Positions 43,921 through 44,849 of a stretch of DNA of 64,000 nucleotides are shown here, in pieces. The DNA comes from Sphingomonadaceae bacterium 3R27E2-A (GTDB lineage: Bacteria; Pseudomonadota; Alphaproteobacteria; Sphingomonadales; Sphingomonadaceae). Location: the NCBI GenBank assembly GCA_005503165.1, contig SCNT01000020.1, positions 1 to 64,000 of the forward strand, read 5' to 3'. The number at the start of each line of letters is the position of its first letter. Positions within the stretch are counted from its first letter, which is position 1. The translations under genes were made by a program, and so were the position numbers. The notes below the pieces were generated by a model. It worked only from the letters and a program-made list of their open reading frames with translations. It ran no database searches and was not told the DNA's origin.

Positions 43921-44278
43921 TTACCAAGTTCCAAGGAGATAGAAGTTCTTCAAAGTCGCACGCAGGAACCGCTTTGACGCCGGCGTCGTTGAGTTTTTCG
44001 AGCAAAGCCTTGATCGGCTCCGCAACGGTCGCCTCGTCCGCATCATCCGAGGTTGAAACGACTTCCAACCGATACTTCCAATTTATCCATCGCGAATAAT
44101 CGCGTTCCTCAATTGGCGGATAGCTATCGCCGTGATCGACCACGATCTTTAGCTGATCGGTCGTGATACCCTCGTAGGTGGCTCGAACGCCAAGCAGTTC
44201 CGCGACCAAATCCTCAATGACTTCAGTCGGCCCACGATGATCGATATAAATTGCACAATATGGGGGTTCGTCGGTCAT
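43907..44278 (-). CDS. Unknown AT-richer gene in the suf operon
   Basis: 123 aa, acidic, soluble, no signal: [20 protein letters not shown]...; a C-terminal helix PIKALLEKLNDAGVKAVPACDFEELL. No family recognised. Base composition differs sharply from its neighbours (25 of 60 bases are G/C in 44041-44100), a sign of transfer. ATG 44278 shares a base with the DUF559 stop, and its end overlaps sufC by 14 bp, so it is fully embedded in the operon. Confidence 0.7.
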   Translation of the reverse strand: MTDEPPYCAIYIDHRGPTEVIEDLVAELLGVRATYEGITTDQLKIVVDHGDSYPPIEERDYSRWINWKYRLEVVSTSDDADEATVAEPIKALLEKLNDAGVKAVPACDFEELLSPWNLVNAQD

Positions 44279-44331
44279 CACCCCACGCTCCCCTCAAGGT
44301 TGATCCCCAGCAACTTCTGCGCCTCGACCGC
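44278..44331. repeat. Second copy of the sufB 3' end
   Basis: 54-bp direct repeat of 44796-44849; 47 of 54 positions agree without gaps. It encodes [17 protein letters not shown] plus stop as the tail of the DUF559 gene, against [17 protein letters not shown] in SufB. Most differences are silent. Confidence 0.9.
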
Positions 44332-44799
44332 ATCAAGCCCCTCCCCTTCAGGGGAGGGGTTGGGGTGGGGGCTATCGATCTGGCGCAACGTGTCAGCGAT
44401 AAGCCGAAGCGCGCCGTCGATGTTGGCCATCACATCGCGATTTGTGACGTGGATGACGCGGTAGCCCATTTCGGTCAGCGCTGCGTCGCGTGCACGATCG
44501 TCGTCCTCGTTATGCGTGTCGCCATCGACTTCGACGATCAGCTTCGCCGACGCACAGACGAAATCCGCGATGAACCAGCCAATGACCTGCTGGCGGCGGA
44601 ATTTGAAACCGTCCAACTGGCCGTTTGACAATGCACGCCACAGCCGCTTTTCGGGTTCGGTCGGGTTATTGCGCATTTGGCGCGCGCGGTTTTGCAGTTC
44701 GGCGAGGTCCAAGGCCGATAGCCCCCACCCCCGGCCCCTCCCCTGAAGGGGAGGGGTGGAAAGGCGCTTGGCCTGATCCGTGGGCGAAAGGCTCGTCAC
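44278..44799 (-). CDS. DUF559 endonuclease-like protein, inserted after sufB
   Basis: 173 aa. The core (about 33-140) is a DUF559 domain of the PD-(D/E)XK/Vsr-like nuclease group: [32 protein letters not shown] with D79, IVEVDGDTH with E90 and D92, and [20 protein letters not shown]. The first ~30 residues ([16 protein letters not shown]) and residues 141-155 ([12 protein letters not shown]) come from the flanking palindromes, and the last 17 residues copy the SufB tail. GTG start overlaps the sufB stop (GTGA); the stop overlaps the next gene. Activity and target are unknown. Confidence 0.88.
44332..44795. mobile_element. Putative DUF559 mobile cassette bounded by palindromes
   Basis: Inverted family A palindromes at 44338-44359 and 44735-44756, with inner arms GGGGTGGGGGCTATCG and AAGGCCGATAGCCCCCAC, bracket the DUF559 gene. 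Outside them lie the two copies of the sufB tail. The boundaries are exact to within a few bases. Being a mobile unit is inferred from this layout and from shorter pairs with the same ends elsewhere in the window. Confidence 0.65.
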
Positions 44800-44849
44800 C
44801 CGACCGACCCCTCAAGCGAGATCCCCAGCAACTTCTGCGCCTCGACCGC
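44796..44849. repeat. sufB 3' end (partner of 44278-44331)
   Basis: This is the copy used by sufB itself. The 29-bp block nearest the gene body is identical in both copies; the differences cluster near the stop codon side. Confidence 0.9.

Follow-up and report, generated by a model that had tools for sequence, protein, structure and literature searches.

A palindrome-framed DUF559 gene at the 3' end of sufB in Sphingomonadaceae and its second copy of the sufB tail

In a stretch of 64,000 nucleotides of Sphingomonadaceae bacterium 3R27E2-A (GCA_005503165.1, contig SCNT01000020.1, positions 1 to 64,000 of the forward strand; hereafter the window), a Sphingopyxis genome, the 3' end of sufB is present twice, namely at the end of sufB itself and at the end of a DUF559 gene, encoding a putative nuclease, that directly follows it. 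How such a gene came to stand behind sufB, and why it ends like its neighbour, is the question raised by this locus. A preliminary description proposed that an element had entered sufB near its 3' end with a replacement tail of its own, or had duplicated its target. The anatomy, recurrence, constraint and incongruence of this element are established here, i.e., in Sphingomonadaceae the sufB 3' end hosts a Vsr/EDxHD-like DUF559 gene enclosed by two conserved inverted palindromes. This gene is patchily distributed, precedes different resident genes and has a history in conflict with that of the adjoining sufB.

The sufB locus and its element-free counterparts

In the window, sufB, the DUF559 gene, a small resident gene and sufC all lie on the minus strand (Table 1). 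The last 17 codons of sufB and its stop recur at the end of the DUF559 open reading frame (ORF) with 47 of 54 bases and 16 of 17 residues identical, within a direct repeat of 57 nt at 86% identity (44275-44331 and 44793-44849); the flank alignment score at this locus (L003) is 74 vs 20 for the 95% value of shuffled sequences. The 7 differences between the upstream copy (tail 1) and the downstream copy (tail 2) are confined to three codons, two of them changed silently (TCG/AGC and GTC/GTG) and one from Ser to Asn. Both inverted palindromes (88%) are within the DUF559 ORF and in frame, tail 2 being located beyond the right-hand (3') one. The sufB stop overlaps the DUF559 start as GTGA, and a second stop-start overlap connects tail 2 with the resident gene. 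As such, ORF analysis and alignment confirmed what the preliminary description had reported of the duplicated 54-bp tail, the bounding palindromes and the two overlaps.

The repeat is neither a chance match nor an assembly artefact, since it recurs in independent genomes. Among 80 Sphingopyxis genomes, sufB was matched in 76 and, leaving out L111 with its split sufB contig, 75 sufB-sufC intervals were readable. A DUF559 gene is found in 11 of them, 10 times directly after sufB and once (L091) behind another gene, about 520 bp further down; it is absent from the 64 others, three of which hold remnants, and element-bearing and element-free alleles are thus found at one and the same site. Searching the 75 intervals with a profile of the sufB tail revealed a second tail in 11, namely eight with the DUF559 gene and the three remnants (L098, L100, L109), which keep second tail and palindrome without an intact nuclease gene, and none in the other 64 (best match E 0.18). 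Copies of the sufB 3' end on both sides of the nuclease gene are therefore present in the window and in seven other Sphingopyxis intervals.

The intervals with neither DUF559 gene nor second tail provide the empty-site comparison that the preliminary description had called for. In 60 of these 61, an ORF of at least 50 codons overlaps the sufB stop, and these ORFs belong to many families. For four of the eight full Sphingopyxis carriers, the gene following tail 2 has family members that directly abut sufB in non-carriers (L026 compared with L080; L077 with L106; L084 with L020 and L036; L089 with L013, L018, L067 and L085), and in those four carriers the nuclease gene therefore stands between sufB and the resident, which speaks for the proposed entry at the sufB 3' end. 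More generally, in Sphingopyxis the gap between sufB and sufC is hypervariable (43907-44795 in the window; L007-L036, L066-L110): small genes of many families begin at the sufB stop and many end overlapping the sufC start.

The product of the DUF559 gene matches PF04480 with 113.4 bits vs a gathering cut-off of 20.6. A structure model (mean predicted local distance difference test score of 76.6, mostly 88-95 in the core blocks) has a predicted Vsr-type fold, with Foldseek matches to 3hrl (E 2.3e-8), 3r3p (E 6.4e-5) and 1vsr (E 0.013). The first of these is a Neisseria DUF559 structure, which groups with the window protein by profile and fold; the second is the catalytic domain of the homing endonuclease I-Bth0305I, matched by profile (E 2.8e-6) and by fold (Foldseek template-modelling score of 0.80-0.82 on the target). 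The ratio of non-synonymous to synonymous substitution (dN/dS) of 0.23 among 11 Sphingopyxis copies indicates purifying selection. PMC9403480 places a DUF559 gene in the EDxHD group.

Table 1. Position of sufB, the DUF559 element and neighbouring features in the window
Feature	Position (strand)	Description	Support
sufB, 495 aa	44796..46283 (-)	stop TGA at 44796-44798	Pfam SUFBD_core 3.1e-79; ORF
Tail 1	44799..44846 (-)	last 16 sense codons of sufB; serves as SufB C-terminus	
DUF559 nuclease gene	44278..44799 (-)	GTG start	Pfam PF04480 6.3e-33; fold like 3hrl and I-Bth0305I
5' palindromic arm	44723..44756 (-)	in frame in DUF559 ORF; palindrome 44735-44756	
3' palindromic arm	44338..44371 (-)	in frame in DUF559 ORF; palindrome 44338-44359	
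Tail 2	44281..44328 (-)	second sufB 3' end; DUF559 C-terminus; strong Shine-Dalgarno-like stretch before next start	
Resident small gene, no Pfam match	43907..44281 (-)	overlaps tail 2 stop and sufC start	ORF
sufC	43177..43920 (-)		ABC_tran 5.6e-19
Nuclease-less element	2037..2135 (+)	pair of the same palindromes, starts 77 bp apart; within an ORF and in frame	

Palindromic arms and history of the element

Over 27 sufB-side sequences, third-position identity amounts to 0.85 in the 5' arm and 0.94 in the 3' arm vs 0.46 in the nuclease core, and the DNA of the arms is therefore itself constrained or renewed. The genome of the window holds 19 exact copies of the palindrome, the reversed control giving none, and three nuclease-less palindrome pairs 73-77 bp apart; the pair in the window (Table 1) lies within an open frame spanning at least 399 codons. 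Direct repeats flanking nuclease-less copies were sought at 13 loci, a 14th at a contig start being left out, and at 12 none exceeded the shuffled 95% value, while L240 was marginal (29 vs 27) with its repeat away from the arm; a target duplication arising as by-product of palindrome insertion was rejected on these grounds. Framing by palindromes extends to DUF559 genes at other sites (L001-L006, L037-L065, L112-L125, L244-L272): GC-rich palindromes are found on both sides of 46 of 48 other Sphingopyxis DUF559 genes, which are not independent loci as at least L046, L049, L051, L057, L059 and L125 share one site, and one is present in 56 of 274 control windows. In a Pseudomonadota sample, where 23 of 29 loci were readable, i.e., those where the domain motif matched, palindromes flank the gene on both sides in 16 and on one side in seven (controls, 20 of 138). 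Another type of palindrome pair, with a CCCGCTTGCGGG core, occurs at 46295-46390, immediately upstream of the sufB start.

Outside Sphingopyxis, a scan of contigs returned 15 loci, namely five from that genus, six distant ones without sufB and four with sufB from other members of the family, i.e., two Sphingomonas metagenome-assembled genomes (MAGs), Sphingomonas sp. Ant H11 and one Sphingomonadaceae MAG. Tail 2 is present in all four of the latter, with several changes in L130 and L131. At E<=1e-38, the DUF559 protein is matched in 33 of 397 genomes of the family, and among 29 further family loci sufB lies upstream in 16 and sufC downstream in one (L158, at a contig edge). Carriage on phages or plasmids was among the readings considered and rejected: the protein is matched in 43 plasmid records, one being a Sphingomonas plasmid with a suf operon that includes the gene, as well as in three phage records, none covering over 80% of it. 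In Sphingomonas parapaucimobilis (L243), a suf operon with the DUF559 gene is carried on a 385-kb plasmid.

The trees of DUF559 and sufB reject each other in approximately unbiased (AU) tests, both for 27 taxa (p 2.6e-89 and 5.6e-4) and for 11 Sphingopyxis (p 1.6e-53 and 8.9e-5). Among the further family loci, L160 is truncated and L164 decayed; these were excluded from the 27-taxon trees together with L149 (missed by the motif) and L143 (sufB stretch too short), L152 being left out of alignment A1. In Sphingopyxis, DUF559 and sufB distances are uncorrelated (Mantel r -0.21).

Homing, translational coupling and other readings

These features suggest a homing-type mini-element with a built-in rescue of SufB, which leaves a copy of the sufB tail downstream, a reading given even odds here; cleavage and homing are inferred. 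The nuclease would cut or nick the 3' end of element-free sufB alleles, whose repair from an occupied copy would insert the element. The upstream tail would then complete SufB, and the displaced or duplicated downstream tail would act as the right homology arm while keeping the ribosome-binding site and the stop-start overlap for the next gene.

If the element brought its own upstream tail, tail 1 is expected to look foreign and tail 2 native, as is seen in the window, where tail 2 departs from the genus consensus at one position in 48 and tail 1 at seven, and as a trend of the group. In upstream tails, TCN is used for Ser at codon -7 in 9 of 13 carriers vs 8 of 61 non-carriers, and for Ser at codon -3 in 9 of 13 vs 11 of 61; carriers here include the remnants and exclude L091, and with related sequences the comparison is only a guide. 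Measured against the nearest non-carrier, carriers differ by 18% and non-carriers by 13% over the last 51 nt of sufB, compared with about 7% over most of the gene, and the excess of carriers over non-carriers is mainly in the last eight codons. Tail 2 is itself well kept and, the arms apart, varies less than other parts of the ORF to which it belongs, with a pairwise protein difference of 10% compared with 23% for the nuclease core and 37-45% for other non-core parts (8 sequences). Within a genome, the first half of tail 1 tends to agree with that of tail 2 (permutation p 0.0008, 12 genomes; p 0.03 when stratified by genus; p 0.10 for 7 Sphingopyxis alone), a weak hint of local renewal. A within-genome repulsion of the two tails varied with the set of genomes (p 0.048 for 11, 0.12 for 8 and 0.49 for 12) and is not claimed.

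Several observations weigh against homing with a carried tail. Divergence of the sufB tail is raised in non-carriers too; L068 and L077 show the reverse pattern, with native-like upstream tails; and in comparisons between loci with the same cargo tail 1 is the closer in three of five and tail 2 in two. The foreign origin of the carried tail, as put forward in the preliminary description, is thus backed by the window and by the recoded Ser codons and left unsupported by these cases. Tail 2 is not seen in 3 of the 11 Sphingopyxis carriers of DUF559 (L069, L096, L102), and among the 17 further family loci beside sufB or sufC it is clear in one (L142) and reduced to a short end in three (L145, L146, L158), with none seen in the rest. 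Recent transfer is not apparent either, as the synonymous divergence (dS) of DUF559 falls below that of sufB in none of 55 Sphingopyxis pairs and in a single one of 351 pairs overall; recent horizontal transfer is therefore not supported and the movement implied by the trees is not dated as recent. The signal of sufB itself may be blurred by recombination. To this is added the want of a clear flanking repeat at the 13 nuclease-less copies. Lastly, no tail copy was seen at the 48 other Sphingopyxis DUF559 loci, at 12 relatives from other loci or at the 23 readable loci of the 29 in the phylum sample. That DUF559 elements copy tails in general, a pattern which the preliminary description had proposed to look for, was rejected accordingly, and the tail copy looks special to sufB; one of the outcomes named in that description as fatal to its idea has thereby been realised in part. 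Flanking repeats above the shuffled value at other DUF559 loci (among them L004, L006, L042, L062, L250 and L271) are read as the palindromic repeats themselves, and a match of 17-19 nt in L046, L051 and L059 is internal to two adjacent coding regions and does not represent a tail copy.

The chief rival, a serious though less than even prospect, holds that tail 2 acts as a signal for translation: stop-start overlaps couple sufB to the inserted gene and this to the resident, the sufB tail carries the ribosome-binding site of the next gene, a DUF559 gene would be kept best if ending in such a signal, and its movement would be homologous exchange between the flanking sufB and sufC, without homing. 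Tail 2 does pair more strongly than tail 1 with the anti-Shine-Dalgarno sequence (mean -11.7 vs -8.6 kcal/mol; 11 genomes, Wilcoxon p=0.014), so that part of the difference between the tails, including that ascribed to a foreign origin, can be put down to selection on how well the next gene is expressed. In other genera, the mean is -9.9 for tails that an ORF overlaps on the downstream side (44) and -7.4 for the remaining tails (16); the remnants L145, L146 and L158 keep just the end of tail 2, and the residents of the sufB-sufC gap are highly varied even where DUF559 is absent. Such a signal leaves unexplained, however, codons -16 to -9 of tail 2, upstream of the ribosome-binding site, as well as the recoding of tail 1 at Ser -7, outside that site, and tail 1 precedes a start codon too. 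Coupling and homing may also hold together.

Rather unlikely is an old resident of the suf operon, i.e., a single entry of DUF559 into the sufB-sufC gap in the ancestor of the family, where it was retained or lost and, in many genera, turned into an ordinary gene of the operon, tail 2 being a relic of the entry. In line with it, the DUF559 lineages are old by dS, and a DUF559-like ORF is found in the sufB-sufC gap in 30 of 60 sampled genera of the family, which is not an unbiased prevalence because the 60 regions were chosen one per genus and most genera known to have the palindrome type beside sufB were left out. In 29 of these 60 further genera the ORF is a palindrome-free relative (29 of loci L172-L229), and the 29 group as a single clade (support 1.0), nested in a wider clade that also holds the palindrome type (69 tips, one of them doubled as L203 and L170 are the same gene; support 0.90). 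Against this, tail 2 is better preserved than an old relic would be, the DUF559 and sufB trees conflict, and the agreement between first halves of the tails hints weakly at local renewal.

In many of the palindrome-free relatives, on reading the sequences, the glutamate of the EVDG motif is gone, as if they had settled into the operon, and across many genera one DUF559 lineage has apparently turned into an ordinary member of the suf operon.

Transposition through the palindromes, like that of repetitive extragenic palindromic (REP) sequences or REPINs, with a target duplication that at about 50 bp would be unusually long, fits the general framing of DUF559 genes and the three nuclease-less pairs but is improbable, given the flanks of the nuclease-less copies and the lack of gene-tail repeats at other DUF559 loci.

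Known systems and other DUF559 sites

RAYTs are HUH transposases, whereas the sufB-side nuclease is a DUF559 protein of Vsr type. The framing of a gene by palindromic repeats and the dispersal of small inverted palindrome pairs in the genome are nonetheless shared with REPIN/RAYT systems (PMC3116915). The closest precedent is provided by the mobile ORFs (mORFs) of fungal mitochondria, found in atp6 of Allomyces and in atp6, atp9, cox2 and nad3 of Glomus: according to PMC3630166, a conserved gene has likewise received an endonuclease gene at its 3' end, the inserted C-terminus completes the host protein, and the native C-terminus is left downstream with largely silent differences. They differ in encoding LAGLIDADG or GIY-YIG endonucleases in mitochondria, compared with DUF559, palindromic arms and a bacterial chromosome for the sufB element, and the foreign origin of the inserted tail is less clear for the latter (PMC3630166). 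The claim of the preliminary description that no described element behaves in this way holds for DUF559 in the open-licence literature searched, where no paper on DUF559 with tail copies or palindromic repeats was recognised from titles and abstract starts; as to architecture, it has to give way to the mORFs.

Regarding the nuclease, it is the catalytic domain of the EDxHD homing endonuclease I-Bth0305I (PDB 3r3p) that is matched by profile and fold. The exceptionally long target given for this enzyme in PMC3943268, near 60 bp, is close to the repeat length at sufB; I-Bth0305I is a multi-domain phage enzyme, whereas the sufB-side DUF559 is a short free-standing protein and a putative nuclease (PMC3943268). 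VsrA of Caulobacter, also a DUF559 domain protein, was studied as a mismatch-repair nuclease, and neither tail copy nor palindromes are mentioned in the available parts of PMC12907096. Engineered home-and-rescue drives likewise combine a nuclease at an essential gene with rescue of that gene, but are designed (PMC7968924), whereas the natural sufB element is at most a putative drive.

Were homing with rescue to hold, the replace-the-tail strategy of mitochondrial mobile ORFs would work on a conserved operon in bacterial chromosomes too, many DUF559 genes would gain a testable role as mobile nucleases tied to palindromic repeats, and engineered home-and-rescue systems would have a natural counterpart. 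More tentatively, the locus might represent a natural home-and-rescue element of bacterial chromosomes, made of a palindrome-framed DUF559 gene, a recoded SufB tail and the displaced tail as second homology arm, and might stand out as the most clearly marked representative of a large and as yet unnamed class of DUF559-palindrome mini-elements in Pseudomonadota, in which a Vsr-type nuclease takes the role that RAYTs have for REPs.

Two minor observations concern palindromes at other sites. The sufC genes of L069, L098 and L102 bear an apparent insertion near codon 60, that of L069 with a palindrome pair. The DUF559 site shared by L046, L049, L051, L057, L059 and L125, palindrome-framed and without tail copy, lies between a gene ending in ASGWVKAALS or alike and a dnaG-like gene, both named by eye.
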